This document shows, piece by piece, positions 2,545-29,159 of a DNA stretch of 29,594 nt. Both the position numbers and the translations under genes were made by a program. The stretch covers positions 1-29,594 of the IMG/VR virus record IMGVR_UViG_3300007229_000047, one strand, 5' to 3'. This DNA comes from a virus. Numbering within the stretch: the stretch's first letter is position 1; every line of letters begins with the position of its first letter. The notes under the pieces were generated by a model. The model was not told the origin of the DNA and did not search any database. It saw only the letters and a program-made list of their open reading frames with translations.

Positions 2545-2605
2545 GGACGACTTATTAGGGTGCTCTAATTTAATCTGTAAAAAATCAGGTTAAATGGAGT
2601 ACCCG

Positions 2606-5600
2606 ATGGCTGAAGAATTTACAAACCCGTTCACCGACGACATTTTTGGTGAGAGCGCATCGGGTAGTACCAGTGACTACACGAACTTATCAGGGGCAGA
2701 CCTTGTTAAAGACCGTGGGTTTCTGGACGATGTTCGGACTTACTACGAGACCAAGGGCCAGACGTTTTCAAGCACATCCGAAATGCTGGACGAATGGTAC
2801 ACAGATCGGCGCTGGAAGGACAGCAACTTTGCATCAGCAGGTAAAGACCTAGCCGAATACGCAAACGCCGGAACAAATAAGCAGCTAATGACCAAGCTAT
2901 CGAAGGCTTGGAGAAACGCCCCAGAGCGCGGTTCGTTTGCCAGCCAAGTTTGGGACTATGGCCTTGCTACCGTAGCCGATCCAATCAACTTCATTCCGTA
3001 CGCGGGTGCCGCTTCCAAAGCCGCCAACGTAGCGAAGCTCGCGAGAGCCGCAGGCGCGACAAAGAACGCAGCCGTAAGTGCCGCCGTTAAGAGTGGCGCG
3101 AAGCGAGGCGCTGTCATCGAGGGCGGCGTAGGTGCTGGCATGGGCGCTGGTATGGACGCCATCCAGCAGACGCGCGAAATCCAACAGGGACTATCTACAG
3201 AATACGACTATGGCCGTACGGCGACATCTGCCGCAATCGAAGGCACCCTTTCAGCGGGTATCGGGTCCGTAATTGGCGCATTTGCTGCACGCAACCCTGC
3301 GCGGGAAGGCTTGAAGTGGAGCAATTCAAACCTTGCGGGTGAGATTGCGGTCCAGAAAACCGACATCGAGCTTTCGGTAAAGGAAGCTGATGCAATTCTA
3401 GCTGACCCTTTACGCGCACCAGACCACGCCGACGCGCAGGAGGCAAAGAAGAACGCCGAGCTTGAGGTCGCTAAGATAAACGCGCACGCTGCAAAGGTAG
3501 ACAAGCTGGACGAAGAGGCCGAGGCTCTTGCTGCCCGCCTTGCCAGTGAGGGTGGAAACACGCCAGAAACAAAAGCAGCCTTCGATGAGAAGATTGCTGA
3601 GTTCAATGCGGCCACAAGCTCAAGCGACATTCCAGAAATTGAGCTTGCTGACCCAGCAGTTGCTGCCGCAACGCCGACAGCAGCGGAGGTAGTAAAAAAA
3701 GCCGAAGCAGAGGCCGAAGCAAAGACCACAGCCGCCAAACCAAAGCCAGAAACTACAGTGGAGGGTGATGAGGCTGAGGCTGAGGCTACATCCACAACTG
3801 AGGAAACGCCTGCAACTGAGGCTGAGGCTGAGGCTGAGGTATCGCCAGCGGCTGAGGCAGCCACTGAAGCAGCTCCAACTACTGAGGCAGCTCCAACTAC
3901 TGAGGCATCGCCAACTACTGAGGCTGCACCAGAGGTACTGGAAGTACCTGCGGTCGAAGGCCGGAAGTTTAAGTTTGATAAGACTAAAGACGAAAGCCTA
4001 CAAAAAGCTCTGGGCAAAAACTTGGCTACGCACAAGAATAAAGTTGAGAAAGCGAACGAGAAGAACGCGACTGCACTTGAGCCACTTACGCAAGAAGACC
4101 TTGAGAAGATTGTCGCTGGAACTCCGAAAGGTACGAAGGACGGATTTATTGCCCCTGCGGGCCGCAAGGCAATCCGCCGCTTTCTTGCCGCTCGTGAGGG
4201 GCGTGTTCCTAGCATCAAAGCTGCTAGTAAAAATGCGAATGCTGACGCTAAGGTTGATGACGCCAGCTTCGTAAACCCAGAGGTCGCTGAGGTAAAAACT
4301 GCGAAAGAAGACTTTGCTAAGTCCGAAGCAGCCGAGGCCGTAGCCGTAGAGGCTGAAGTCGAAGAGCTGGCAAACAAGGCCAACGAAGTATTCGCAAGAG
4401 TGATCAAGCTCTCTAAAAATTCTCTCAATGCTATACGCATCAACCAGTCGTTCGAGGGCATAGCGTCTGGGCTAGAAGAAAATGTTGCCGCAGCCGTACG
4501 ACGCCGCATCGAAGATTACAAAACCAACGTGATCCCCGTAGTCGAGAAGTTGAAAAGAAATGAAAAAGTAGCAGCGCTTCGGGTCGCGGAGGCTGGGCAA
4601 GCCGAGCGTATGTACGGAGGCGACTTTAAATACACCAAAAGCCGCATTGCTGACAGCACCGCCAAGTCGATAAATGCACTAGAGACAGACCTCGAAGCGG
4701 GTGTCACTACATCCGTATCCACCAGCAAGAAGACTGGTGAGAAGGTAGTCACGAAGAAAGTAAACTCACTGCTCAAGCCTGGTACGGAAATCGGCCTTGA
4801 GGGTGGCGGCACCATTACTGAAGGCGCGGGCGCGTTTCGTCGTGAGAACGAGACCCTGTTGGCGGCCCAATCACAGGCTGAAATGGACGTTGCTCAAGGT
4901 AAGAACAAGGCCGTTTATAGCTTCCCAGCTCGCGCAGGTATGCCGCTTGTTGGCGTGCGGGGCGTTGGCCGTGGCAAACGTGGCGTCGCTACTGAAGGAC
5001 AAGTTGTCTACGGTGCAATGACCCAGATCGGTAAAAACGACAGCAAGTTTAAGGTGTACGCAACCGAGAAAATGGCACTCGAAAGCCTTGGCTTGTCTAA
5101 GGGTCAGATCGGCATTGATACATCCAAAATCAAACCTATCGAGAGCACGGAGGAGCTTGAAGCTGCCAGAGAAAAGGCGTTCAAAAAGTTCTCCAAATCG
5201 AAGGGCGATGTTGATGCTCTTGAGGAAGACCTTGCAGTCGCTGACGCTCAAGGCCGCGAAGGTGGCTTGGATGTCGATCCTGCTCCCGAAGTAGTAGTTA
5301 AGGATGGCCGAGGTAATGTAGTTAAGACGGACATTCCAGAAGCACCTACGACACGCAACGGTAAGGTTTTGGTTCTACTGCCGCGCACTACAGAAGTAGC
5401 ACCTCGGGTAGCAAGCAAATCCCAGATCGCGTCTGACGCGGGTGTTGCTGCCTTGCTGGGTGGTAAGCCTGCTTCGTTGTTCCGCATCGGTTACGTACCT
5501 GCTGAGATCAACGGCAAATCAGCGCAAAGCCAAGCAACCAAGCGCAACCTAATCCGAGACAACTTTGAGCCGCTTGATGAGGCTAACTCATTCGAGTTCA

Positions 5601-8600
5601 CACCTAGTGCAGAGCCGGAAGCTGAAATGCCAGCGCGTCCTCTCACTCAAAAAGAAGCTGATAATACTGTCATCGACATCTCCGCTTTGGCTTCAACACC
5701 AGAAGGTAAAACCGTCGCTCAGTTCCTGTTCCAAGGCGACAACATTGCAAACGCGAAGTCCCTTGATGGGTTGATCGCACCAACCTTCGATGAGTTCCTA
5801 AAATCCAAGCCTACTTTGAACCGCTTGCAAGAAAACTTAAACTTTCTTGAGAGAGACGACTTTAAGATTACTACTACTCTTGGGGATAAAGAAGTTGAAA
5901 TCCCTCTGAGCTTCCGCATCAAAGCCCTAAACGCCCTTCACACAGTCATAAAGGCTGAGGCTCCGCACGGGGTCAAAAAGCCAACGGTAGACATCGAGGC
6001 GTCCATCTCTTCTCTGAAGAAGGTCATGTCTGGTGTGGGTGAAAAGGTCTCAAACCAGATCGAGTACCTTCTTCGCCAAGCAGTACCGATTGACAAGGCA
6101 CCTATCTTTGGTTCGCCATCAGACGGCGGCAGTGCGGGTAGCGTTTTCGTCTACGGTGCTAAGTCCGAAGACTACAACAAGGTCATGCTGGACATGTCCT
6201 CCTTTGACGCTGATGGACAGCGTACGGGGATCACTGGTTCGTACACTGTCATGCACGAATTGGGCCACTGGATGTACGAAAACGTCTTAGATGCAGAAAC
6301 CAAGGGAGAGTTCTGGGGCAACCTGGATAAGTTCTACGACGAGAATGGCCGCTTCACTGAAGGCGCGAGCGAAGTAGAGGGTGGCTTGACTGCCCTAGAA
6401 AAGCTCACTCCATCTGTAGAAGTAGACGGCGTACGCGCGGGTGTTGCTAATGGCAAAACAAACCCACAAGAATACTTTGCAAACCAGTTCTCGCTCTACA
6501 TGCACCACAAGTTCAATAGCCCACTAGCGACTGCTAATGCGAATGTTTTGAAGAAGGCAGCCAGAGTTCTACAGAAGCTATGGCTTAAAATGACCAATCG
6601 CGACATCATTGATCCAGAGATGGAAATGATGTTCGACAAGTTGATTGCTGACAAGGACGTTGCTCTGCAAAAGCAGTTCACATTCCCAGTGAAGGCAACC
6701 ACATCGGTTGGCAAAACTCTTGAGAGCCGCTTCATCCAAATAAAGGATGCACTCCGAGACTTTGAAGCGGCCATCCAGAACTACCCAGACACCAGCGACC
6801 CAGAAAAGATGGCGACATCAGCGCGGGCGCTGTCAAATGTCTTCAACGGCATGTCTATGACTAAGAAGACCAAAGGTTACTTGGTGCGCAAGGCAGGCAA
6901 CGTCGCCTCGGATCGCGCGGCGCTTGACCGATCCACAGGTGTTCTGAAGTTAATGAACGGCAAGCAGCTACGTGGTATGCGTGCAATCTCCAAGGCGATC
7001 AACGAGGCGACTATAAGAACCGACAGCCGCATCTCACAAGCTGGCGATGACATGGAAGTGTTCGGCGGAGCTTACCACTCTGAGATGGAAGCATCACTTG
7101 TTGATCTGTACAACTCTTCAATGAAAGAGTTCACTGAGGAGCTAAAGACCTCCATGAACGACATGTTCATGGACATCGAGTACGGTGATATGGAAGCGTT
7201 CTTGCCTTCCGAAAACCTCTTGAGCCTCCGCGCCAGCTACAACATCAATGGACCGATCCTGGCGAAGAAAAAGAACTTCGAGCAGAAAATCAAGAGAGAG
7301 GTCAACCGTCAGCGCGGAACATTCTCAAGGTCTCTATCCAGAGCAATGAAAGCCACGGGCAAAGCAAACGCCAAAGCCTTCAAGGGAGACATCGTTGCGG
7401 GTACTAAAGGCAGTGAAGCTAATAGCTACAATCTGGAAGAAAGCGTACGTGAATACGGACGCCAGATCGGAGCAGATGGCGTGCCGACAGCGTTCGGAAA
7501 GAAGTTAGCGAACCGAGCTAAACATCTTATCAACACTCAAGTCGATGATGTGAACCTGACAGAAGAAGAGCAGGCTATCTACCACACATGGCAGTCCAAG
7601 ACTGTTGGTAAGGGCGCTAAAGGTCTAGCCAACGGGGCCAAAATCGACGAGCTGACGATGGCCCTCTCGATAACTATTGATGGTGGAGAGATTAAGGGCA
7701 TCGGTGGCACACCGGAGCAAATCCAAAACATCACACGCCACGTCATTAAAGAGCGTTATAAAGCTCGGAAATCCAAGGCTGCGCTCAAAGACAAGAACGT
7801 CACCGACGCCATCGAGATAGAACAGCTACAAGAAGCGGGCGTCGCCTTCGAGAACGGCATCCCGCAGAACGCAAACTTCACGATGCGTGGCTTCCTGAGA
7901 GGCATCACGCACCGCGCTCAGGATGTGGAGTACAACGCACGTACGCTGACAGCACGGCTTGCACGTCTTGATGCGATCTTGCCACAAAGCGTAGACGACT
8001 TGACCTACAAGGGGTTCCGCAAAGCGATCCGTCTTGCTGGGGTCAACTTAACTCGTGACGGTGACATAACGCAGTCCGTAAGGTTGGTGTCCGAGAGCTT
8101 GTATGGCTCTAACGTAGTCTCTCAATCATCACGCAACGCTATCTCAAAGTACGCAAGCATCCTTGACCGCGAGCCAGCAGATGTGTTCTCTGAGATTGTG
8201 ACCGAGAGCGTGGATACGCTGTCTTCGAAGGATCAGATCAAGGCGATGCGTCGAAGCATGGTCGGAGAAGACCTCGATGGTGTTGATGAATTATTGGGTG
8301 AGATCGAAGATAATTTGGTTGATGCTCTCTCGTACGTGTTCAACGGCTTGGTATCATCAGCTCCTGCGCGTAACCGTTTCTACGGCATCGCCTTCCCAGA
8401 AGACTTGTTCTCTACAGGTGGTACGCAAAAAGCCAGCACGCGCTCACGTTACCAGAGTGACGTACCTACGGAGTACGCAAGCGACTATGCGTACGAGTTA
8501 CTAGACAACTACAGCAAGGCCGCCCGCAGCTCCATCGAGGAGTTCACGGGTGGAAATGTTCGCGTGTTCTATAGAAACAACGACACGAACGGATCAGTGG

Positions 8601-11600
8601 GTCGGGGCGCTTACGTTACATCTCGTCCAACAAACACGCTTGAAAACATGGCGGGTGATATAATCTCATCCGCTCCAGAGGCGAACCAAGATGATGTCGC
8701 TGATTACGTCGATGCTCTAATCGAACTTCGCGGGCAAGTTAATGCTGCTCGCCGCGACCCGATGTCCTCATCAGAATACTTTGAGCGCATGTACGCACTA
8801 GACGATGCCTTGTCCCAGGAGATTGGTGAACTGGGCGCTCGTATGGATACGAACGTGACGCCTGTATTCGTACGCGACACGACGCCAGCAATATTCAGCG
8901 GAAACATGAACTCCCTTTCTCCTATCGTGCAGGCCATGAAGGGACACTACGTTGAAAGAGTTGCTTCGGGTATGAGTGGCCGTGATCAAGCCAATCAGAT
9001 CAAAGCGATTAGAGGAAACTTCACGCCAGCACAAATGCTGGACACGCTGACCGACATTGCTGGTGGCGAACGTCAGTTGCGTGAAGCCATGACTGAAATG
9101 GGATACACCTCCTTGAACATAGGACCAGACAAACTGGTTCTGAAAAAGAGCAGCGTACGCGATGTTCGCTCGCAGTCCTTTGAGAGCTCAACACCTCTTC
9201 TGGGTGAGGGTGGCGTCGAGCCAGCACTGAATGGCGCGATAGCATCTCAAATCTTCGCAGGCTCTGACCCAATCAAGGTTTTCTCACAGGGCGCTAAAGC
9301 TCTTGAGGATGCTGGTGTAGCGCCGAAGGCCGTTGACGGCATGGTCTCAGTCGCTCGCGGCAGAGGAATGCCAAAAGACGCAGCAGCGGAAATACGCAAG
9401 TCCAACATCTACAACCCGCTTCGTACGAACTCACGCATAATGAAGCGGTCTGGCATGTCTTTCCTTGCTAACTTCTGGGAGCCCGAAGCGGGCGGCGGGG
9501 GCCACTTCGAACGTACGAATGCTAAGATGGGCAAGTTCCTGATGCCTATGACACGTATGCTAAAAGAACTTCCTGATAGCGCGGGCATAGCGAAGCGTTA
9601 CTTCCAAACAGGCCCAGTGATGATGGCGGAGAGTGCTATGGGCGCTATGGGTATGGCCCCGAAGCGACGCAACACGCAGCCGATCAGCCACATGCGTATC
9701 GTTACAGCTTTGAGAAACAGCGATACAGCATCACAACTTGTGGGCAAAGAGATGGAAACTTATCAGCATATCCGTTCTTATTTGGATAATGCCGTTGCTC
9801 GTTTGAGAGCGTCTGGCAACATGGTTGGTGAGATCAAAGACAACTACTTCCCACAAGTGTGGCGCAAGGATTTGATCGAGGCTGACCCTGACAGGTTCAA
9901 GCGAGGCGTATCTAAATACTTCATGGCTGAGAATGCGTCGATGCAAGGCTCAGAAGTCTTAACGCAAGCGGAGGCAATGAAGCGTGCTGGTCGCTTGGTA
10001 GAGAAACTACTTGATCAAGACGGCGTGCTTTCTAGCCCGTCAAAAAGTCTAAAAAGCACATCCGGCAAAGGCAACGAAGATAGCCTAGACTTCCAGCGGA
10101 TGATGCGACTTCAAGAGTTCCCTGAGTTCACCGACTTTGACAGCCCAGATACACTTGCGCCGTTCTTGGAGAACGACTTGCTTGTGTCCATGACAAAGTA
10201 TTCCGACAGTATCGAGCACCGTATTGATCTGACAGAAGAGTTCGGGCCTGCCAACCACGGCTTCCACGACTACATTGCGATCTTGGCTGACCCGATGCAC
10301 GGCAAGCAGACTATTGCGACACTGCTTTCATCAAACAAAATCCTCAAGGCGAACCACTCACGCATGGGTGGCTCTGGGGAGGGCGAGCTGGACAGGGTGT
10401 TCACGGACACTTTCTTCATGGCCCCGATCAAAGACAAGTACGTTGCCGAACAAGCTGCTAAAAGCCTTATCGAGAAGGCTTCTAACGGTGCATCAGTCGC
10501 TGAAATGCAGGCTGAGATCATGGGCATCCTTGACGCGAAGATCAGCAACACACCCGAAGCGGCTCAAATTCGTAACAACTTCTCGAAGCGTGCGGCTGCA
10601 ATAGCAAACGCATTGGTTGATACGAAAGGTCTTACAAAGATAACTTCCCAGGATAACGTCAAGCACGCCCAGGGCTTTATGAACGCAGCCATGCGTAAGC
10701 CAGTAGACGGCCAACATGGTCTGTACTCCATGAAGAATGCGTCCAAATGGTTGCGCGGTGTGAACGCCGTAACGCTACTCAGCTTTACAACCCTGACATC
10801 CTTGGCTGACTTGGCGCTGCCGCTCATTCGTACTGGCGATCTCAAGTCTTACTATACAGCTCTCAAGCAATACGCACGCGAACCTGCGTATCGTGACATG
10901 ATACGCAACGTGGGTGCAGCTACGGAGAATGCGGTTCATCAGCGTCTAACAGTTGCGCATGGTGTAGATAGCACTCAGTTTATGACTGGGTTCTTTAACT
11001 CCACACTTCTTACGCCTTGGACAGATAGTATGCGTAACGTGGCAGCCGCCGTAAGTTACGAGCACGTAAAGGCGCAGCACCGCATCCTTCGTGAAGCGCC
11101 TTCGACCCGACAGGGCCGCATCGCTCGAAAGATTTTGCAGCAGGAGGGCTTGCAGGAGCTTATCGAGGACAGCAGCATTGACCTTGATCTCATTCTGGAA
11201 AGCCGTGGGTCTGCAAACGAGCACCCTCTCAACGACAAACTGGCTACGTCTCTCATCAAGCTGACAAACCAGATGATCTTCACTCCGAACCCGAATGACC
11301 TACCATTGTGGGGTGCAACGCCACTCGGCGCTATTGCAATGCAGTTGAAATCGTATCCTCTAATGATGCAGCGCATGGTAAATGGTGTGGTGGCCGAAGC
11401 GTTCGCTGGGAGTACGCCAGCGAATAGAGCATCTAACTTCGCCAAGGCTTTCGTTGGTCAGTCTGACAACAGACTTGGGCCACTCGGTGCTCTTCTTGTT
11501 GCGGGTCCAGCGTTCGGTGCCGCATCAGTTGCAGTAAAAGATGTTGTTCAAGGGCGTGGCGGGGAGGACAACCGTGATTTTGCCTTGCGTGAACGCAGCC

Positions 11601-12040
11601 TATCCAAAACTGTGACCACAGCTTTCGAGGATAATCCAGAGCTAGACCGCAATCTTGGCCTATACTTCGACGGCATGGTTGCGCTCGGCGGGATGGGCTT
11701 CGTAGGTGAGCTGATGTACGACGTTGCCTCGAACGCGGATAATGGTGCGTACGGTACGCAGCGTACGATGGAGGGCATCTTCGGCCCTACACTTGGCCTG
11801 TTCAACGACGCATCATCTGTCTTGCAGGGCGCACGTTCCGTCTATGATGGAGACGAGGCTAACGGTGAGAAGAGGTCAGCTATCCGCGAGATAGTCGGAA
11901 GAGTTCCGGTCCTCGGCGGCGTAAGTTGGGCAAAGGAAGGCATAATCGACGTTTTGGGTGGCGAACGTGGCCAAGCTGGGCGACCATCCTCCGGCGGTTA
12001 CGGCAGCGGATATGGCAGCGGTTACGGCAGCGGTTACTAA
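2606..12040 (+). CDS. Giant 3144-aa internal virion / polyvalent protein with zincin metalloprotease domain
   Basis: I chose ATG 2606 because GGAGT lies 5 nt before it; an in-frame ATG at 2594 lacks a good ribosome site. Domains in order: a Gly/Ala-rich hydrophobic region (about residues 118-235); an Ala/Glu/Thr low-complexity linker (about 348-452); a zincin motif HELGH (H1217, E1218, H1221) with likely third ligand E1289 in NPQEYFA; a region near 1985-2009 (VFYR...GRGAYVTSRP) that faintly resembles an ADP-ribosyltransferase fold; long helical stretches; hydrophobic segments near 2719-2742, 2957-2978 and 3019-3037; and a Gly-Ser-Tyr repeat tail. Giant proteins of this kind in marine podoviruses are ejected with the DNA. 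The mix of peptidase and possible effector domains fits the polyvalent-protein class. The protease motif is clear; ejection and the ART call are inference. The stop codon overlaps the convergent gene at 12037. Confidence 0.75.
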   Translation: MAEEFTNPFTDDIFGESASGSTSDYTNLSGADLVKDRGFLDDVRTYYETKGQTFSSTSEMLDEWYTDRRWKDSNFASAGKDLAEYANAGTNKQLMTKLSKAWRNAPERGSFASQVWDYGLATVADPINFIPYAGAASKAANVAKLARAAGATKNAAVSAAVKSGAKRGAVIEGGVGAGMGAGMDAIQQTREIQQGLSTEYDYGRTATSAAIEGTLSAGIGSVIGAFAARNPAREGLKWSNSNLAGEIAVQKTDIELSVKEADAILADPLRAPDHADAQEAKKNAELEVAKINAHAAKVDKLDEEAEALAARLASEGGNTPETKAAFDEKIAEFNAATSSSDIPEIELADPAVAAATPTAAEVVKKAEAEAEAKTTAAKPKPETTVEGDEAEAEATSTTEETPATEAEAEAEVSPAAEAATEAAPTTEAAPTTEASPTTEAAPEVLEVPAVEGRKFKFDKTKDESLQKALGKNLATHKNKVEKANEKNATALEPLTQEDLEKIVAGTPKGTKDGFIAPAGRKAIRRFLAAREGRVPSIKAASKNANADAKVDDASFVNPEVAEVKTAKEDFAKSEAAEAVAVEAEVEELANKANEVFARVIKLSKNSLNAIRINQSFEGIASGLEENVAAAVRRRIEDYKTNVIPVVEKLKRNEKVAALRVAEAGQAERMYGGDFKYTKSRIADSTAKSINALETDLEAGVTTSVSTSKKTGEKVVTKKVNSLLKPGTEIGLEGGGTITEGAGAFRRENETLLAAQSQAEMDVAQGKNKAVYSFPARAGMPLVGVRGVGRGKRGVATEGQVVYGAMTQIGKNDSKFKVYATEKMALESLGLSKGQIGIDTSKIKPIESTEELEAAREKAFKKFSKSKGDVDALEEDLAVADAQGREGGLDVDPAPEVVVKDGRGNVVKTDIPEAPTTRNGKVLVLLPRTTEVAPRVASKSQIASDAGVAALLGGKPASLFRIGYVPAEINGKSAQSQATKRNLIRDNFEPLDEANSFEFTPSAEPEAEMPARPLTQKEADNTVIDISALASTPEGKTVAQFLFQGDNIANAKSLDGLIAPTFDEFLKSKPTLNRLQENLNFLERDDFKITTTLGDKEVEIPLSFRIKALNALHTVIKAEAPHGVKKPTVDIEASISSLKKVMSGVGEKVSNQIEYLLRQAVPIDKAPIFGSPSDGGSAGSVFVYGAKSEDYNKVMLDMSSFDADGQRTGITGSYTVMHELGHWMYENVLDAETKGEFWGNLDKFYDENGRFTEGASEVEGGLTALEKLTPSVEVDGVRAGVANGKTNPQEYFANQFSLYMHHKFNSPLATANANVLKKAARVLQKLWLKMTNRDIIDPEMEMMFDKLIADKDVALQKQFTFPVKATTSVGKTLESRFIQIKDALRDFEAAIQNYPDTSDPEKMATSARALSNVFNGMSMTKKTKGYLVRKAGNVASDRAALDRSTGVLKLMNGKQLRGMRAISKAINEATIRTDSRISQAGDDMEVFGGAYHSEMEASLVDLYNSSMKEFTEELKTSMNDMFMDIEYGDMEAFLPSENLLSLRASYNINGPILAKKKNFEQKIKREVNRQRGTFSRSLSRAMKATGKANAKAFKGDIVAGTKGSEANSYNLEESVREYGRQIGADGVPTAFGKKLANRAKHLINTQVDDVNLTEEEQAIYHTWQSKTVGKGAKGLANGAKIDELTMALSITIDGGEIKGIGGTPEQIQNITRHVIKERYKARKSKAALKDKNVTDAIEIEQLQEAGVAFENGIPQNANFTMRGFLRGITHRAQDVEYNARTLTARLARLDAILPQSVDDLTYKGFRKAIRLAGVNLTRDGDITQSVRLVSESLYGSNVVSQSSRNAISKYASILDREPADVFSEIVTESVDTLSSKDQIKAMRRSMVGEDLDGVDELLGEIEDNLVDALSYVFNGLVSSAPARNRFYGIAFPEDLFSTGGTQKASTRSRYQSDVPTEYASDYAYELLDNYSKAARSSIEEFTGGNVRVFYRNNDTNGSVGRGAYVTSRPTNTLENMAGDIISSAPEANQDDVADYVDALIELRGQVNAARRDPMSSSEYFERMYALDDALSQEIGELGARMDTNVTPVFVRDTTPAIFSGNMNSLSPIVQAMKGHYVERVASGMSGRDQANQIKAIRGNFTPAQMLDTLTDIAGGERQLREAMTEMGYTSLNIGPDKLVLKKSSVRDVRSQSFESSTPLLGEGGVEPALNGAIASQIFAGSDPIKVFSQGAKALEDAGVAPKAVDGMVSVARGRGMPKDAAAEIRKSNIYNPLRTNSRIMKRSGMSFLANFWEPEAGGGGHFERTNAKMGKFLMPMTRMLKELPDSAGIAKRYFQTGPVMMAESAMGAMGMAPKRRNTQPISHMRIVTALRNSDTASQLVGKEMETYQHIRSYLDNAVARLRASGNMVGEIKDNYFPQVWRKDLIEADPDRFKRGVSKYFMAENASMQGSEVLTQAEAMKRAGRLVEKLLDQDGVLSSPSKSLKSTSGKGNEDSLDFQRMMRLQEFPEFTDFDSPDTLAPFLENDLLVSMTKYSDSIEHRIDLTEEFGPANHGFHDYIAILADPMHGKQTIATLLSSNKILKANHSRMGGSGEGELDRVFTDTFFMAPIKDKYVAEQAAKSLIEKASNGASVAEMQAEIMGILDAKISNTPEAAQIRNNFSKRAAAIANALVDTKGLTKITSQDNVKHAQGFMNAAMRKPVDGQHGLYSMKNASKWLRGVNAVTLLSFTTLTSLADLALPLIRTGDLKSYYTALKQYAREPAYRDMIRNVGAATENAVHQRLTVAHGVDSTQFMTGFFNSTLLTPWTDSMRNVAAAVSYEHVKAQHRILREAPSTRQGRIARKILQQEGLQELIEDSSIDLDLILESRGSANEHPLNDKLATSLIKLTNQMIFTPNPNDLPLWGATPLGAIAMQLKSYPLMMQRMVNGVVAEAFAGSTPANRASNFAKAFVGQSDNRLGPLGALLVAGPAFGAASVAVKDVVQGRGGEDNRDFALRERSLSKTVTTAFEDNPELDRNLGLYFDGMVALGGMGFVGELMYDVASNADNGAYGTQRTMEGIFGPTLGLFNDASSVLQGARSVYDGDEANGEKRSAIREIVGRVPVLGGVSWAKEGIIDVLGGERGQAGRPSSGGYGSGYGSGYGSGY
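3762..3922 (+). repeat. Low-complexity coding repeats (Glu-Ala and Pro-Thr-Thr-Glu-Ala units)
   Basis: Inside the giant gene, runs of GAGGCT (Glu-Ala) are followed by three 18-bp tandem units at 3869-3886, 3887-3904 and 3905-3922, with GCTCCAACTACTGAGGCA as the typical phase. They encode an acidic, flexible linker between the N-terminal hydrophobic region and the middle of the protein. The number of units may vary between relatives. Confidence 0.8.
11996..12037 (+). repeat. 12-bp tandem repeat encoding a C-terminal Gly-Tyr-Gly-Ser tail
   Basis: Three and a half copies of GGTTACGGCAGC (one copy GGATATGGCAGC) end the giant protein. The silent changes between copies (GGT/GGA, TAC/TAT) keep the Gly-Tyr-Gly-Ser pattern. 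The result is a flexible aromatic tail at the extreme C terminus. Confidence 0.8.
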
Positions 12041-15381: not shown

Positions 15382-15410
15382 CGTATATGTTACGCCGTTA
15401 GTTGTTGCAA
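15382..15410 (-). promoter_or_regulatory. Leftward promoter for the recombination operon
   Basis: Read on the minus strand: TTGCAA (15410-15405), a 17-nt spacer, then TATACG (15387-15382). Transcription would start near 15375, just before the operator at 15357-15372, and run into the gene at 15331. The match is moderate. The opposite strand has an overlapping -10-like TATATG (15384-15389) that could serve the regulator gene. Confidence 0.5.
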
Positions 15411-21354: not shown

Positions 21355-21939
21355 ATGGAGACAACTCCCTTGACACAAGTGTATCGTAACCACTACAACA
21401 GTGAGATCGGCAATCCTGCCGCCCATCAGCCTGATGTTGGTGGAACTAACTATACTAATCAAATGGAGACATCCGTTATGCACAACATGCGATACGAATT
21501 GGCTCGTATTGAGGCTAAAATTGATATCCTTACGAACCTTGTCCTTAAAATGGACAGCCCAAACACAGCAACAACTTCAGCATCAGTAAGCGCTTCAGCT
21601 TCCGAGCAAGCATTGGTGCGATCACTGACGACAAAGCAGCACGTAACCGCCCAACTTCTTATTGCTGGGTGGCAAAACAAAGACATCGCGAAGTTAATCA
21701 ACATCGGTGAGAACACCGTGAAGCTGCACGTACGAGCCGTGTGCAAAAAAGTTGGCACCAAAACGCGCGGTCAAGCTGCACTAATAATGAATGACATCTT
21801 AGAAAAACTAGACCCCGAAGATTACAAGCGAGCGTCCGGCGGCATCCCAATAGACTGGGCACGGACGCTGGTGTCGGATGCACAGGATCATTACGCTCCA
21901 CTATACAGAAGCGCGGGGGGGACTGATGGCACTATTTAA
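21355..21939 (+). CDS. LuxR-type (GerE) helix-turn-helix regulator
   Basis: The 194-aa protein has a clear LuxR-type HTH at about residues 91-145 (LTTKQHVTAQLLIAGWQNKDIA..., then NIGENTVKLHVRAVCKKVG). There is no receiver or autoinducer domain. Before the HTH are a short helix (YELARIEAKIDILTNLVLKM) that could dimerise and a Ser/Ala linker. The start is uncertain: ATG 21355 lacks a ribosome site, while ATG 21478 has GGAG 9 nt upstream and a TTGACA about 100 nt before it. I keep 21355 because codon use stays protein-like. It overlaps the integrase gene by 14 nt, so it may control integration or excision. Confidence 0.8.
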   Translation: METTPLTQVYRNHYNSEIGNPAAHQPDVGGTNYTNQMETSVMHNMRYELARIEAKIDILTNLVLKMDSPNTATTSASVSASASEQALVRSLTTKQHVTAQLLIAGWQNKDIAKLINIGENTVKLHVRAVCKKVGTKTRGQAALIMNDILEKLDPEDYKRASGGIPIDWARTLVSDAQDHYAPLYRSAGGTDGTI

Positions 21940-22936
21940 ACCTAAGAAAAGGAGCGGTGGTCAGTTCTACCAAGCGGTCGGCGTCTACCAAGGCATCCGC
22001 GTACGCCAGTCTCTTGGCACCGCTGACTACGCCTTGGCCCGTGAGGCTTGCGCTGAGTACGAACACAAAGTTCTTACAGGCCAAGTCAAGGTCGGTGCAA
22101 AATCGACGCTTGGTAATCAAACTAAGTTCAAAACCATCGCAACCCGCTACCTAAAGTCCCCAATGACAGGCACGTCCAAGTCAACGCGCGACTACGTGAT
22201 GATGCTTGCCGACCACTTTGGTGACTATCAGATCAAATCCATCGACCTCAACGACATCGAGGAGTACGTAGAAGAGCGCCACGTCAACCGTGGCAACTCG
22301 AACTCAACGATCCGTCGAGACCTAACCCAACTCCAAAGCATTCTAAACTACGCTCACGGCCTTGGGTTACGCGATGCGATCAAACTAAAGAAGCCAGCCG
22401 AAGGCGAACACAAGACGGACACCTTCAGCAAGGACGAGATCAACAGCATCTTCCCTCTGTTGCCGCCCGACATCCGCCGCATCTGTACGTTCCTCTTGAA
22501 CACAGGCGCGCGGCCCATCGAAGCGATGACATTGCAATACGATGCAGTCGATTGGTCAAACAACACTTGCGTCCTTGGTTGCTACAAAGGAAGGGGCGGC
22601 ATCTTACGAACGCGCAGAATGCCGCTCAACGAATTGGCTTTGGATACTATCCCCAAGTCACAACCACCACCTTCGACGCATGTGTTTCTAAATCAGGGAC
22701 GCCCGTTCGAAAGTAACAAGCAAGTCGGCTATCATTGGCGTAAGGTAACTGACAAACTGGGCATAAATAAAAGCCCATACACATTGCGCCATACATTCGC
22801 TACGCGCCTCGCGCGTAACGGGACACCACCGAAAGTAATCGCTGATCTGCTGGGTCACTCCGACCTAAAGATGGTGATGCGCTACATGAATACTACCTAC
22901 GAAGACCACAAGTCAGCAGTCATGTCTCTCCAATAG
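21926..22936 (+). CDS. int: Tyrosine-type integrase
   Basis: I start at ATG 21926, preceded by a G-rich ribosome site; the longer frame to 21878 lies inside the LuxR-type gene. The 336-aa protein has an arm-binding N terminus, a SAM-like core-binding domain (about 65-150) and a catalytic domain. R196 (GARPIEAM), R288 (TLRHTFATRL), H311 (LLGHSD) and nucleophile Y320 (VMRYMN) are present. The usual first His of the HxxR motif is Tyr285, a change seen in some phage integrases. It should recombine attP with a bacterial attB. The candidate attP with a tRNA-Ser fragment lies 99 nt downstream. This marks the phage as temperate. Confidence 0.93.
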   Translation: MALFKPKKRSGGQFYQAVGVYQGIRVRQSLGTADYALAREACAEYEHKVLTGQVKVGAKSTLGNQTKFKTIATRYLKSPMTGTSKSTRDYVMMLADHFGDYQIKSIDLNDIEEYVEERHVNRGNSNSTIRRDLTQLQSILNYAHGLGLRDAIKLKKPAEGEHKTDTFSKDEINSIFPLLPPDIRRICTFLLNTGARPIEAMTLQYDAVDWSNNTCVLGCYKGRGGILRTRRMPLNELALDTIPKSQPPPSTHVFLNQGRPFESNKQVGYHWRKVTDKLGINKSPYTLRHTFATRLARNGTPPKVIADLLGHSDLKMVMRYMNTTYEDHKSAVMSLQ

Positions 22937-23902: not shown

Positions 23903-24182
23903 ATTTGTCTGTCAGCATTTCGAAGGCGCGCTTCACTCTACTCAGTGGCGTACTCGCCCCTTCCATCTTCTCTTTGACGCGATCAATCAGCTTAGATTTC
24001 CACTCATCATTCTTCATCGACATCACTAGACCGAGCACGAGCATGTCTCTCTCAGTCATATCGTTCGACAAGCCACACCTCACATAACCATCTGCGTCAA
24101 CGGACAAAGCGGGTGCCTTGTCCGTCACGTACAATCTCTTACGTACGTATTTGATCTGTGCTTGAGTATCAGCGCTCATCAT
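23901..24182 (-). CDS. Hypothetical protein, last gene of the AAA+/VWA operon
   Basis: The 93-aa protein is basic and mainly helical: a DGYVRCGLSNDMTERDMLVLGLVMSM middle, then a charged helix WKSKLIDRVKEKMEG. It starts on an ATG that overlaps the stop of the zinc-ribbon gene (ATGA). There is no signal or membrane segment and I recognise no family. Confidence 0.65.
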   Translation of the reverse strand: MMSADTQAQIKYVRKRLYVTDKAPALSVDADGYVRCGLSNDMTERDMLVLGLVMSMKNDEWKSKLIDRVKEKMEGASTPLSRVKRAFEMLTDK

Positions 24183-24367
24183 TCGCCCTCTTCAAAGATT
24201 GAATTTGCTAAGTCGATGGGCAACTCCACGGTCACTGACCTAAAGTTACACACCACACATTTTCGTTTGCGCTTAATAGTTTGGAAGCCGTACCCAATGT
24301 GCGGTCGGCTATCCCAAGTTGCCAATTTGTGCAGGCAATCGGGACAGTGAGATATGCTCTCGCCCAT
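24179..24367 (-). CDS. Zinc-ribbon protein resembling the NrdR N-terminal domain
   Basis: I start at ATG 24367, sharing a base with the previous stop (TGATG); the longer frame to 24523 lies within that gene. The 62-aa protein has CPDC (C8, C11) and CVVC (C37, C40), with WDSRP after the first pair and IKRKRKC...NFRSVTVE around the second. That order (CPxC, DSR, RxRRxC, CxxRxxTxE) matches the zinc ribbon of NrdR-type repressors, without the ATP-cone. It may bind DNA or RNA or act as a transcription cofactor. The similarity is local and may reflect only the zinc-ribbon fold. Confidence 0.7.
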   Translation of the reverse strand: MGESISHCPDCLHKLATWDSRPHIGYGFQTIKRKRKCVVCNFRSVTVELPIDLANSIFEEGE

Positions 24368-24819
24368 CAGACCTCCACCAGTTGTACAACTTCTGGTACA
24401 TAATCCTTTGCCAGTCGGACGTACTGCGTCGGCAGGCCCATTCCCTTGCGTGGCAGCGCAGCCAGGTATCCTTCCGAAGCCATCTGTGAAAGGTACGAAG
24501 CGGCGGCTTCTCTCGTGATCCATCCTGTTTTATTCGCGCCCGTTGCTAACTCTTCCATCACCGTGCGTATCGTTACAAGTTCCCCGTCGCGTATGACTGC
24601 AAGGATTTCCTGCCAAGCCTCGATCCTTCTCAACTTCGTACCCATCCTCTCGTAGTCTGCCTTCAACCGCGCCGCGTGACGGCTGGCAGCAGTCGGCTCG
24701 TCGCATGGCATTCTCGGACGCAAACCTTTCTTCACCATCTCCCGTTCAAACTTCATCATACGTTTAGCTAGACGCTCTTCTCCATCTGCGTGGCTGTCGC
24801 CAATCATAATATTAACCAT
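24367..24819 (-). CDS. Putative winged-helix protein
   Basis: This 150-aa protein has a basic helical N-terminal half (ERLAKRMMKFEREMVKKGLRPRMPCDEP..., then SRHAARLKADYERM). Its second half looks like a winged helix: LRRIEAWQEILAVIRDGELVTIRTVMEELA, then WITREAAASYLSQMASEGYLAALP. It overlaps the small upstream gene by 8 nt. An inner ATG at 24807 (MIGDSH...) is an alternative start. The gene contains a 12-bp palindrome, AGTTGTACAACT, at 24380-24391 near its end. DNA binding is inferred from the fold pattern. Confidence 0.65.
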   Translation of the reverse strand: MVNIMIGDSHADGEERLAKRMMKFEREMVKKGLRPRMPCDEPTAASRHAARLKADYERMGTKLRRIEAWQEILAVIRDGELVTIRTVMEELATGANKTGWITREAAASYLSQMASEGYLAALPRKGMGLPTQYVRLAKDYVPEVVQLVEV

Positions 24820-24988
24820 CGATCTTACCCCGCATGTTTACCTTCACGATGTCTACAATCGAAAGAAGCTCATCCATCGTGTGCTTTCTTGGGTTGCCCG
24901 TAGCCTTAAACTCCATCTTCAAATTCTCCAGCTTGTACTCGATGCGCTTCAACGCATTCATTGTCTGCTCGTGTTGCTCAATATTCAT
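24812..24988 (-). CDS. Small helical protein (58 aa)
   Basis: Start at ATG 24988 with AAGGA about 9 nt upstream, overlapping the SleB-like gene's stop by 4 nt (ATGA); its own stop overlaps the next gene's start by 8 nt. The product (MNIEQHEQTMNALKRIEYKL..., MDELLSIVDIVKVNMRGKIDG) is charged and helical, with a coiled-coil-like first half. Couplings at both ends make it a likely real gene despite its size. Function unknown. Confidence 0.65.
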   Translation of the reverse strand: MNIEQHEQTMNALKRIEYKLENLKMEFKATGNPRKHTMDELLSIVDIVKVNMRGKIDG

Positions 24989-25377
24989 CCGTTAGTTTCC
25001 TTATAAAAAATGTGTTGTCCGTATTGTGCAGTCTTCGTAAACGCCTTGGCCCAGTACGGGCTGGCGTAGATGGAGTGGTAAAACAGGACACCCTCTCCAA
25101 CTTTTCTGGGTGTCCCCTCTTCCATCGCAAGTCGCGCAACATTGGCTGCGATTGCCCATGCCACTGGATCGCGCGGCGTGTCGCTCTTGCCATCGTGCGT
25201 CCAAGAGAATTGCTTGTGCTGCCAGACAACATCGCACACGTTGTCTGGATACTTCTCGCTTGCGACCCTGTTCAAAGTCACTTGCGCCACAGCCATCTGA
25301 CCATCGAAGCTCTCTGATCTGGCCTCGAAGTAGACGTTAATAGCGAGGCAAAGTGCCGCTTGTGTAATTAGAACCAC
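24985..25377 (-). CDS. SleB-type cell-wall hydrolase (Hydrolase_2)
   Basis: I start at GTG 25377, which has AAAGGA 8 nt upstream; the longer frame to 25449 overlaps the previous gene more deeply. The 130-aa protein follows the SleB/CwlJ family: CLAINVYFEARSES (E18-A-R-S-E22), VAQVTLNRV, VCDVVWQHKQFSW, a central helix, GEGVLFYHSIYASPYW, and YGQHIFYK. These enzymes cut peptidoglycan as lytic transglycosylases. There is no signal peptide. It is separate from the main lysis cassette and encoded on the other strand within the AAA+/VWA operon, so it may act in lysis, in entry, or on the cell wall at a time set by that operon. Confidence 0.88.
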   Translation of the reverse strand: MVLITQAALCLAINVYFEARSESFDGQMAVAQVTLNRVASEKYPDNVCDVVWQHKQFSWTHDGKSDTPRDPVAWAIAANVARLAMEEGTPRKVGEGVLFYHSIYASPYWAKAFTKTAQYGQHIFYKETNG

Positions 25378-25600
25378 GTACGTATTCCTTTCTAAGATGC
25401 GGAAGTTTTTCATCGACCAGGCGCATGATGCGCTTGATCTTTTCTTCATCGGCGTGGCGTACGCGCTTTGATCGGATGACGTACGCTACGTGCCACCACC
25501 AACCGTGCGGTCTCCATCCATCACAAAACGCATACCAACTGCGCTTCATCGTGGGCGAAGACCTATAGTCGAATGAGGTGGGCATTTTCAGTTCACGCAT
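25337..25600 (-). CDS. Hypothetical protein
   Basis: The 87-aa protein is basic and aromatic-rich near its start (SWYAFCDGWRPHGWWWHVAYVIRSKRVRH) with a helical, charged second half (DEEKIKRIMRLVDEKLPHLRKEY). It overlaps the CobT-like gene by 8 nt at its start and the SleB-like gene by 41 nt at its end. MPTSFDY at 25585 is an alternative start. I see no known family; the Trp-rich patch could contact membrane or protein partners. Confidence 0.6.
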   Translation of the reverse strand: MRELKMPTSFDYRSSPTMKRSWYAFCDGWRPHGWWWHVAYVIRSKRVRHADEEKIKRIMRLVDEKLPHLRKEYVRGSNYTSGTLPRY

Positions 25601-27440
25601 GAGCGTGACCCTGACTAATCAGCAGCTTTTCTAGGCTGCCGAGTAATGTTTCTCCAAGTTTATTGAAGTCCGTGAGCACAGATTTGCTAAACATTTTGCT
25701 CACATCAATACCGATACCGATGCCGATGACCTCGATACCTATGGCCTCCATTTCCTTGACCAGCGTGCTACACATATCCACCTCACGGTGTCTGCCGTTC
25801 GGTTCGCCATCCGTCAGCATGAGCAAAATCTTACGCGGCTCATGCCAACTCGACATCATATTCGCATACGTCATCAGCGCTGCGTAGCTTGGCGTATCGC
25901 CCCCGACGGGTTGGAAGTTCAGCGTCGTCTGTAGCTTTAGATAGTTCTCGTGAGAATGTTTGTGTGTCACGATCCAAGGAAGATCACCCATCACATCTCG
26001 ACCGCCGTAAAGGCTTAGGCCACCCCATTCGGTCACATCGTACTTGACACCAGCACGACCGAGCGCATCATTCACAACGTGTACAGCCGACATTGTGTTG
26101 ATTGAGCTCATGCTGGTCGAACCATCGACCGCAAGCATCAGCCGCGTCTCCGATGTTCGAACGTCTTCCGTACGTGCAAAGATGTTCTGATTACCCGCAA
26201 CCAATTGCGACAACCTACGGCGATCAATACGCCCCGAACTGTACCCGCCCTCGTTGCGCTTACTCTCTTGGCTCATCAACAACCGCGCGAGCCTCGCACC
26301 GTACGCGCTGACATCCTTTCCGATTAGTGCCCGAGCACCCAAATTTTCTTGGGCCAGTAAGTCCTTGTGTTTGTCTGCGTTTCGCCATTGTCCAACAACT
26401 ATATCCTTCACACGGGCCTTTACGTTTGCAATCTGAACCTTTTGTCCCAGCGATTTCCACAGGTCTAGGTGCGTATCGTGTACCGCACTAAACTGCGTGC
26501 AAACCCTGCGCGTATTAGGCTTAGGGCCGTACTTACCAAACACGTCTTGCATGTTATCGGCTTTGCGATCCTCGGCATCTTCCATGCTGAAGCCCTTTGG
26601 CTTCGGCTTGTCAGCATCAGGCTTGTCAGCATCAGGCTTGCCATCACCATCACCCTCGCCGTCAACTTCCTCGCCTTCATCTTGGTCTGGCTTATCCTGC
26701 CCCTTGCCCTTGCCCTCGCCATCACCATCCTCGCCCTCTGGGTTTGGCTTTGGATGGGTTGGCTTTGGCTGTGGTTCATCTTCCTCACCAAGCTCTTTGC
26801 CCAGCGCCTTGACCCGCTTGCTTATCTTCTTCGCAAGCTCGTAGCTTTCACCAGTATCCTCTGTCGCGTACATCTCCTTCGCAAACTTTCGAGCCTCTTT
26901 GGCTAGATCGTCAGGCATGTCCTCGATGTACTGATCGAGCGCATCGCTTTCGTACCCTGCATTGTGCCGTGCCTGTTGCAGCGCAGCGTACGGTATCTCA
27001 GTCCACCACGTTTCGCGCCGTGCGGCGTTCTCTTCTGGGTTGTCCTCCCAGTGCTGGTTCTCGTTGCCCAACACGCTATCAACAGTCGCTTGCAAGCTAC
27101 GCTTGGCACCTGAGTATTTCTCACATGCCTTGCGCTCCACCAGAACATCCTCGCAAGCGTTCCATATTCCATGCAGATGCTTGGGTGGCTTTTTCGCCTT
27201 TGCCAAACCGAAGTCGGTATCCGTTACATGCCCGACCTCATGGATGTGATAGCCTCTAGCTATCGCCTGATCCTTGGGTGTCATGGTTGCTGCCATGTCC
27301 ATTTCGGGAAGGTTGATTGTCTTGCCGTCGGTATGGGCACCTTGACCTATGAACGTGGTGCGTATGCCTTTCGTACCCATGATCTCCGACAACTTATCGA
27401 ACTCCGTTTTGAGTGCGGCCACTGAATTTTGGTTAAACAT
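25593..27440 (-). CDS. CobT-like protein: HExxH metallopeptidase-like domain plus VWA domain
   Basis: The 615-aa protein starts at ATG 27440 with AGGA 9 nt upstream. The N-terminal part has HIHEVGH (H67, E68, H71) and, 26 residues on, NACEDVLVER with E97 as a likely third ligand; this is a zincin-like site. Residues 219-282 are an acidic Lys/Asp/Pro/Gly linker, partly from a 15-bp tandem repeat (26605-26640). The C terminus is a von Willebrand A domain with a full MIDAS: D439-G-S441-T-S443, T516 and D544. Database tools tend to call this family CobT after the cobaltochelatase subunit, but CobN is absent and the peptidase-like site argues for a MoxR-VWA complex acting on proteins. It follows the CobS-like gene by 23 nt. 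Confidence 0.85.
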   Translation of the reverse strand: MFNQNSVAALKTEFDKLSEIMGTKGIRTTFIGQGAHTDGKTINLPEMDMAATMTPKDQAIARGYHIHEVGHVTDTDFGLAKAKKPPKHLHGIWNACEDVLVERKACEKYSGAKRSLQATVDSVLGNENQHWEDNPEENAARRETWWTEIPYAALQQARHNAGYESDALDQYIEDMPDDLAKEARKFAKEMYATEDTGESYELAKKISKRVKALGKELGEEDEPQPKPTHPKPNPEGEDGDGEGKGKGQDKPDQDEGEEVDGEGDGDGKPDADKPDADKPKPKGFSMEDAEDRKADNMQDVFGKYGPKPNTRRVCTQFSAVHDTHLDLWKSLGQKVQIANVKARVKDIVVGQWRNADKHKDLLAQENLGARALIGKDVSAYGARLARLLMSQESKRNEGGYSSGRIDRRRLSQLVAGNQNIFARTEDVRTSETRLMLAVDGSTSMSSINTMSAVHVVNDALGRAGVKYDVTEWGGLSLYGGRDVMGDLPWIVTHKHSHENYLKLQTTLNFQPVGGDTPSYAALMTYANMMSSWHEPRKILLMLTDGEPNGRHREVDMCSTLVKEMEAIGIEVIGIGIGIDVSKMFSKSVLTDFNKLGETLLGSLEKLLISQGHAHA

Positions 27441-27463
27441 TTGTGTGATCCTTGATTGATTGA

Positions 27464-28993
27464 TTAGTTGCTGATGCGATCCATGATGCCTGTCACAGCA
27501 ATGCTGTCGCCTTCATCAATGGTATTCATCACGTTCATTTCGAGCGCTCGCTTCACCGCCACCGTGGTGCCCAAGCGTCCCTCGAAGTCGGCAACGTACT
27601 TGCCTATCGTGATCGTGTTGCGTGGTGAGATCGGCGTTGCTATCGTGCCATCCGCAAACGCTTCGCGGTACGTCTCCAAGAAACTACAGATCAGTTGCTC
27701 GGCTTGCTTCGACAGGGCGGGTGCAAACTTCTTGACCAGCATCATCTCGTCATCCACGTTCAAGTAGTCTACCTTGATGAACACGGGGAACCTGTTGATC
27801 GACGCTCTCGATTGTACCTTCACCGCACTTGCGTACAGTCCAGAACTATCTCCCGTACCCACCGTGTTGGCTGTCGCCATGATGTGAAAGTCAGGGTGCG
27901 GGTGAACCATGCGACCGCCATCTTCCATAAGACGCAGCGCACCACCTTCCAGCACGGGTTGCATCACATAGCTGATATCAGCACGTATCGCATCGTACTC
28001 GTCGAGCAACATAACGACGGGCAGTTGCATCGCCTTGGGCAAGAAGCCATCCACGAACTTGGTGATCTGGTTGCCATCATCGTCGGTGGTCACGCTCATG
28101 GCACCTACGAAGTCAGGCCGCTCGATGGCGCTGTCCATGTTGGCACGCATCATCATGCGTCCGGTGTGCGCACACACCTGAGCAATGAACGTCGTCTTTC
28201 CCGTACCCGTGTGACCAGTCAACCAAGCATTGTTCTTGGTCTCTATGGCCCACAACGCATCCGCTAGGTTGCTTCTGTTGAAGATGTAATTGTGATCCTT
28301 GGCAGGCACCAACGGGTTGTCGTACTCCCAATCGTACACGGTGATCTCCATGTCCAAGAGGCGGTCTTGGATACCGAACACTACCTGTGCATTGACCCTG
28401 CGCGGCGTACCTTCTGGGATGTCACCGCTTGCGGGTACAATAGCCGCCACCGCAACGGGCGCTGGCTTGTTCCGCAAGGCCACCACCTCATTGAGCAGCC
28501 CTTGCAGATCGTTCATCTCGCCATTGGTAGCAACACGCAGCAACACGTTCGCCGCTGTCGCAATGTCATCTGCCACATCGTACGTAGGCGACGTAGGCGA
28601 CGTGCCGAGATCGTCAGGGATGTAATCGGAGATGCTTGCACTGTTGAGGTCTAATTCATTGCTCCAAGGCCACATCTCGCACATGCTTCCGTCAGTGGGG
28701 ACGCACTTGAAGGCATCAAGGATACTATGAAGGCCTTCGTCGCACATCAGCTCCTCCAGAAGATAACCCAACGCCTTGGCGCTCATGCGGTCGAAAATCT
28801 GTGACACACTAACGCTGCGCATCTTCTTGCTTGCTATGTGGGTGCTGTTCACGAGAGCAGAACCATTTGCTTCGGTGGCAATCGCGGTGAGGTCTATGCC
28901 CTTGAATTCTGCGGCTGAGTAGATCGCTCCGCGCAGAATTGTCTGAGCCTTGCGTGCATCGTGGGTATCTATAATGTTTTGAACAGTTGTCAT
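27464..28993 (-). CDS. CobS-like AAA+ ATPase (MoxR class)
   Basis: The 509-aa protein has an N-terminal region of about 225 residues without known motifs, then a MoxR/CobS-type AAA+ core: Walker A GHTGTGKT (260-267), Walker B VVMLLDEYD (D331, E332), sensor-1 ATANT (N376), and the CobS-like VGTGDSSGLY after it. The sequence around Walker A and DEYDA is close to CobS of cobaltochelatases. Such ATPases form hexamers that remodel or chelate-load a target through a VWA partner, here the next gene. It heads the operon, behind the operator-controlled promoter at 29021-29051. Phage CobS homologues are known in marine phages; the substrate is unknown. Confidence 0.88.
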   Translation of the reverse strand: MTTVQNIIDTHDARKAQTILRGAIYSAAEFKGIDLTAIATEANGSALVNSTHIASKKMRSVSVSQIFDRMSAKALGYLLEELMCDEGLHSILDAFKCVPTDGSMCEMWPWSNELDLNSASISDYIPDDLGTSPTSPTYDVADDIATAANVLLRVATNGEMNDLQGLLNEVVALRNKPAPVAVAAIVPASGDIPEGTPRRVNAQVVFGIQDRLLDMEITVYDWEYDNPLVPAKDHNYIFNRSNLADALWAIETKNNAWLTGHTGTGKTTFIAQVCAHTGRMMMRANMDSAIERPDFVGAMSVTTDDDGNQITKFVDGFLPKAMQLPVVMLLDEYDAIRADISYVMQPVLEGGALRLMEDGGRMVHPHPDFHIMATANTVGTGDSSGLYASAVKVQSRASINRFPVFIKVDYLNVDDEMMLVKKFAPALSKQAEQLICSFLETYREAFADGTIATPISPRNTITIGKYVADFEGRLGTTVAVKRALEMNVMNTIDEGDSIAVTGIMDRISN

Positions 28994-29020: not shown

Positions 29021-29062
29021 AGTGTAAACAACACAACGGAAGTTGTGTCAAGTTAGTTGTGC
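29021..29062 (-). promoter_or_regulatory. Promoter and operator for the AAA+/VWA operon
   Basis: On the minus strand a perfect -35, TTGACA (29051-29046), is followed by a -10 region at 29028-29021 (TTTACA at 17 nt or TACACT at 19 nt). The spacer and -35 are covered by a perfect palindrome, ACACAAC-N4-GTTGTGT (29031-29048). A half-site, GTTAGTTGTGC (29052-29062), lies just upstream. This is the clearest member of the operator family and would allow tight repression of the whole operon. Confidence 0.7.
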
Positions 29063-29122: not shown

Positions 29123-29159
29123 CTTCTATCTTTGATAGAAGGTCGCCCCTGCGCGGGGC
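29123..29159. other. Two more hairpins between operons
   Basis: CTTCTATC-TTT-GATAGAAG (29123-29141) is a perfect 8-bp stem. GCCCC-TGCGC-GGGGC (29145-29159) follows, then AGTATTTTATT on the plus strand. The second could end plus-strand transcripts. Together with 29080-29103 they form a chain of three hairpins. Confidence 0.5.

Follow-up and report, generated by a model that had tools for sequence, protein, structure and literature searches.

The window, i.e. the whole stretch of 29,594 b analyzed here, corresponds to positions 15,406–44,999 of the 53,289-b viral record IMGVR_UViG_3300025652_000005, in which cobS and cobT are identical to those of the window. Two genes in tandem on the minus strand encode a CobS/MoxR-type AAA+ ATPase of 509 aa (27464–28993) and a CobT-like protein of 615 aa (25593–27440). 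The first-pass annotation had claimed such a pair at 25593–28993 with a spacing of 23 nt. Both open reading frames are real and lie at these coordinates, and the gap comprises positions 27441–27463. The cell-wall hydrolase and the small zinc-binding candidate with which the operon was said to end were also recovered. Downstream of the cobT-like gene and on the same strand lie genes for a Hydrolase_2 cell-wall hydrolase of 154 aa (24985–25449, E = 4.7e-25) and for a small NrdR-like zinc-ribbon protein (24179–24523, minus strand), whose 27.0 bits are slightly below the cut-off of 27.2. An 87-aa open reading frame without confident family (25337–25600, minus strand) overlaps the stop of the cobT-like gene. 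A PADLOC analysis of the window gave weak generic ATPase matches only and thus no known defence system.

Directly upstream of cobS, a perfect 18-bp palindrome, ACACAACGGAAGTTGTGT (29031–29048), overlaps a TTGACA box on the minus strand. Even allowing two mismatches, 0.12 such palindromes are expected per window. The same palindrome is found in two close relatives (L002 and L017); in L021 and L023 another palindrome stands at this site. We infer a candidate operator of the cobS/cobT promoter, in agreement with the operator-controlled promoter that had been suggested for the operon. A generic promoter scan of the window found no promoter excess and missed the TTGACA-box promoter owing to a spacer of about 19 nt. 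Further upstream, at 29123–29141, there is a hairpin with the arms CTTCTAT and ATAGAAG and the loop CAAAG. The arms covary in L017, L018 and L021, whereas the loop changes little, and the hairpin is a possible conserved RNA element.

On the plus strand, two open reading frames of 836 aa (34–2544) and 3148 aa (2594–12040) together fill more than one third of the window; neither has a PHROG (E 0.001) or Pfam (E 0.01) match. At 21355–22936 (plus strand) a gene for a LuxR-type regulator overlaps an integrase gene, arranged as in phage CRP-810, so that the window's phage may be temperate, at least in part.

The CobS-like ATPase and the CobT-like protein

The ATPase contains a Walker A motif (GHTGTGKT, residues 260–267), a Walker B motif (DE, residues 331–332) and the sensor residue N376. 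It matched AAA_5 (E = 6.5e-15), the CobS family TIGR01650 (156 bits) and phrog_249 (E = 9.7e-54), and it carries an N-terminal extension of about 190 aa that true CobS lacks. Its AlphaFold model (pLDDT 81.8) has a MoxR fold, with CbbQ and NorQ as the best Foldseek matches (TM-score, target, of about 0.8).

The CobT-like protein comprises an N-terminal domain with an HExxH motif (residues 1–225; 26766–27440, minus strand), an acidic linker and a VWA region with a MIDAS motif (residues ~376–615; 25593–26315, minus strand). The full-length protein matched CobT_C (PF11775, 29.5 bits, cut-off 21) as well as VWA and phrog_1576, and the N-domain alone matched CobT (PF06213, 28.9 bits, cut-off 26.1). 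The residues H67-E68-x-x-H71, E97, D439, S441, S443, T516 and D544 are all where the first-pass annotation had placed them. The MIDAS residues D439, S441 and S443 show no substitution among 56 viral relatives and five true CobTs; D544 is found in 55 of the 56 viral proteins, and the position of T516 is mostly occupied by Asn. With a MoxR-clade AAA+ protein adjoining a VWA protein with a MIDAS motif, the two genes form a MoxR-VWA pair.

The N-domain was modeled with a pLDDT of 92.3 and a pTM of 0.89. The HExxH motif lies in a helix of residues 55–74, and N94, E97, D98 and E102 lie in the next helix (residues 87–108). A Foldseek search of this model against the PDB gave no significant match and no solved zincin. 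Against BFVD it matched CobT/VWA proteins of viruses, among them tailed viruses of haloarchaea; matches to metallopeptidases were weak (E = 0.28–1.3). The N-domain profile also matched the anti-CRISPR protein AcrIIA26 (PDB-entry 9zq6_B, E = 0.0029), with E97/D98 aligned to E49/D50, the residues that contact Cas9 (PMC13089141). We did not adopt a kinship, since this is a single match to a very acidic protein published as a novel fold (PMC13089141) and may be due to chance.

The HExxH motif in viral relatives and in true CobT

A scan of IMG/VR with the CobS alignment yielded 80 loci, in which cobT was then located with the N-domain profile. It follows cobS directly or shortly downstream in all of the roughly 70 viral loci that extend far enough past cobS. 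At the few loci where no cobT was found the contig ends in or just past cobS (about 560 b are left in L025). Clustering of the viral N-domains at 80% identity gave 41 clusters. Failure of the motif to align in close relatives had been named as refuting a peptidase; H67, E68 and H71 align in all 41 clusters, with an exact HExxH in 40 and one residue inserted within the motif in the L072 cluster. N94, E97, D98, E102 and G111 are invariant across the clusters. The motif is also present in IncC, Methylobacter and Microvirga plasmids, in an Acinetobacter phage-plasmid and E. coli phage-plasmids, and in cyanophage S-CAM3, Rhizobium, Klebsiella and E. coli phages and ICP2. Two phages, nickie of Pseudomonas and ANB28 of Stenotrophomonas, have lost it and kept the rest of the protein, so that peptidase activity is not needed in every case. 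For the 'peptidase' gene of S-CAM3 (L006, 1543–3686) the annotated start at 1773 is too late, and the omitted upstream part contains HEVGH.

We compared these sequences with five true CobTs (from Sinorhizobium, Rhizobium, Cereibacter, Sphingomonas and Pandoraea). None has the HExxH motif: the viral RGYxDHEAGH aligns with RGxxDAxALR, and the three motif positions are occupied by A/S, F/M/A and R/Q. E97 and E102 are kept in true CobT, whereas N94 and D98 are not. Of the zincin site proposed in the first-pass annotation, the HExxH is real and conserved in the viral relatives, and zinc binding is putative. E97 as the third ligand is doubtful, because it is kept in true CobT and is replaced by Val in the HExxH-bearing ICP2 gp41, as aligned by eye. 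A profile-profile comparison (hhalign) of the viral N-domain with true CobT gave an E-value of 1.7e-6 with a collinear alignment over about 115 columns, and 39 of the 41 viral N-domains matched PF06213. At the level of these profiles, homology of the two N-domains is well supported.

The origin of the CobT N-domain is testable, its direction being beyond the reach of the unrooted CobS tree, in which true CobS forms one clade (support 100/100) amid phage and plasmid lineages. This tree has no outgroup and the long branches of ICP2 and S-CAM3 meet in it; rooting it in order to decide between gain and loss of HExxH was dropped for these reasons. The CobS of L015, a contig from a Candidatus Dependentiae MAG, groups with the viral L076 in the tree, and L015 is probably a phage contig binned into that MAG.

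Plasmids and neighboring genes

A tblastn search with the homologue from plasmid pAsa4 retrieved 1,833 plasmid records, 1,241 of them predicted to be conjugative, with at least 80% identity in 786 records. The IncC plasmid that we examined, from E. coli, is conjugative (MOBH, MPF_F), and genes for the HExxH-VWA protein and for a CobS-like ATPase surround ssb-bet-exo in it. We found no literature on cobS in IncC plasmids. On several plasmids a gene for a DUF3150 protein (L107, 6639–7916) precedes the HExxH-VWA gene; its product is a possible third partner of the plasmid pair.

Among the annotated phages and elements, the pair of phage nickie is located near ligase and dnaE. A dnaE gene is also a neighbor in Klebsiella, Stenotrophomonas, Acinetobacter and Microvirga elements and in E. 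coli phage PhiR41_1 (recorded host MG1655), where an HExxH-bearing CobT and CobS are followed by this gene for DNA polymerase III alpha. Neighbors are ligase, a sigma factor and DNA polymerase III alpha in a Rhizobium phage, gp46, clamp and clamp loader in S-CAM3, and polymerase and primase-helicase in T5S1 and ICP2. In the window's phage, genes for a primase/polymerase, Sak4 and a Cas4-type exonuclease lie 8–15 kb from the pair and do not adjoin it. Such replication neighbors are weak evidence of function, because phage genes are modular.

Proposed role and comparison with known systems

Based on the domain architecture, motif conservation and gene neighborhoods we propose that the pair uses ATP to remodel a target protein, possibly by proteolysis, rather than serving B12 synthesis, and we put the probability of this role at roughly one half. 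The CobS-like ATPase would form a MoxR-type ring and dock on the CobT-like protein at the VWA (MIDAS) domain of the latter. Driven by ATP turnover, this domain and the acidic linker would move, and the HExxH domain at the N-terminus, possibly with bound zinc, would act on the target, which would be remodelled or perhaps cleaved. The pair probably meets its target early, around DNA entry, replication or recombination, since related pairs adjoin such genes in unrelated elements. MoxR-VWA pairs are known protein remodellers (PMC7159879). The loss of HExxH in nickie and ANB28, the lack of a zincin match to the model and the distance of the pair from the replication genes of its own phage speak against this proposal. 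ATP-driven remodelling or processing had already been suggested in the first-pass annotation and is still the best guess; the novelty suggested there is not supported, since the two-gene cluster is widespread (PMC8651126) and a chaperone/protease idea has been published (PMC7824862).

The cobaltochelatase CobS/CobT of alphaproteobacteria works together with CobN, the catalytic subunit. A CobN homologue elsewhere in the genome had been named as an observation that would return the pair to a cobalt-related role; searches for PF02514 gave no match in the window, the 53-kb record, 27 other viral records, CRP-810 and T5S1, records that are possibly fragments, and none in an E. coli control genome. 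Liu et al. (2021, PMC8651126) proposed that viral CobST uses the CobN of the host and raises B12 synthesis in the infected cell. Homology to CobS (156 bits) and CobT agrees with this, as does the B12-dependent ribonucleotide reductase NrdJ, which is encoded by one subset of related phages (~44–48 kb) and was matched in 8 of 30 records (6 above the cut-off). The window's phage and its three nearest long relatives, however, have no NrdJ match, both proteins score far under the equivalog cut-offs (156.5 against 558.6 bits for CobS, 30.3 against 759 bits for CobT), and the HExxH so strongly conserved in viral CobT is missing from true CobT. Moreover, the HExxH-bearing pair occurs in the K-12 phage PhiR41_1 and in E. 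coli IncC plasmids, and the E. coli control genome is without CobN, which argues against the borrowing of host CobN as a general function. We regard a role in B12 synthesis as very improbable.

An assembly or processing of virion proteins, as suggested for jumbo phages (Iyer et al. 2021, PMC7824862), would suit the chaperone-peptidase architecture. An archaeal virus was reported to require a MoxR-vWA system for assembling its tail (cited in PMC7824862), and at 17 of 38 viral loci a terminase gene is located in the flanking sequence. In annotated phages, however, neighbors from DNA metabolism are found more often than structural ones, and the 786 plasmid records with the closely similar pAsa4-type protein, together with the conjugative IncC example that has the ATPase too, weigh against it. 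Conjugative plasmids make no virions, and a virion role is therefore not general; it may hold in phages. The 'host or virion component' named as target in the first-pass annotation is weakened accordingly in its second part, and we consider the virion explanation unlikely. It is less doubtful, and still only a tentative alternative, that the pair remodels without proteolysis, its HExxH domain binding a metal or the target instead of cutting, as presumably in true CobT. The absence of the motif from nickie, ANB28 and true CobT, where E97 and E102 remain, would be explained in this way, as would the missing zincin fold match; an HExxH that is exact in 40 of the 41 clusters from viruses and the change of N94 and D98 where the motif is missing speak against it. 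The remodelling role with possible proteolysis could, speculatively, be taken further: phages and conjugative plasmids might share an ATP-gated metalloprotease that removes or cuts proteins associated with DNA or with defence during DNA takeover, with the CobT of B12 synthesis as a catalytically dead relative. In this specific form we think the idea rather unlikely.

Viral cobS and cobT are often counted as auxiliary metabolic genes of B12 synthesis. B12 labels on such genes should be treated with caution. If the HExxH motif indicates protein processing, many of these annotations are wrong. A machine common to phages and conjugative plasmids would then await its substrate.

With cobaltochelatase the viral pair has in common the AAA+ and VWA families, the gene order and the homology of the N-domain over about 115 columns. 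It differs in that true CobT lacks HExxH, true CobS lacks the N-terminal extension and forms a separate clade, and CobN is a partner. NorQ-NorD and CbbQ-CbbO, which provide the nearest solved folds for the ATPase, share the principle of an ATPase with a VWA protein and have other targets; to our knowledge, neither NorD nor CbbO has an HExxH domain. The group 2.2 jumbo-phage system, a MoxR ATPase and a vWA domain fused to an N-terminal metallopeptidase proposed to act as a chaperone/protease pair (PMC7824862), has the same architecture as judged from its description, whereas the window's phage, with a 53-kb record, is small and plasmids carry the pair as well. The pair belongs to the already known viral CobST/MoxR-VWA kind, a two-gene cluster widespread in tailed viruses (PMC8651126), with the same two adjacent genes and the same domains as gp06/gp07 of Roseobacter phage CRP-810 (PMC11288001). 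CRP-810, with an identity of 38.9% in CobS and 29.3% in CobT, is one of the closest isolates with annotation and shares the LuxR-type regulator and the integrase as well. In that literature viral CobST is read as a cobaltochelatase and the peptidase annotation of cobT is called mistaken (PMC8651126); since HExxH is nearly universal in the viral members and absent from the five true CobTs, this annotation may be right. To the known system the present analysis adds the relationship between the viral N-domain and CobT, the occurrence on conjugative plasmids, the recurrent replication and recombination neighbors and an HExxH-bearing pair in a phage of E. coli K-12, a host with no CobN.
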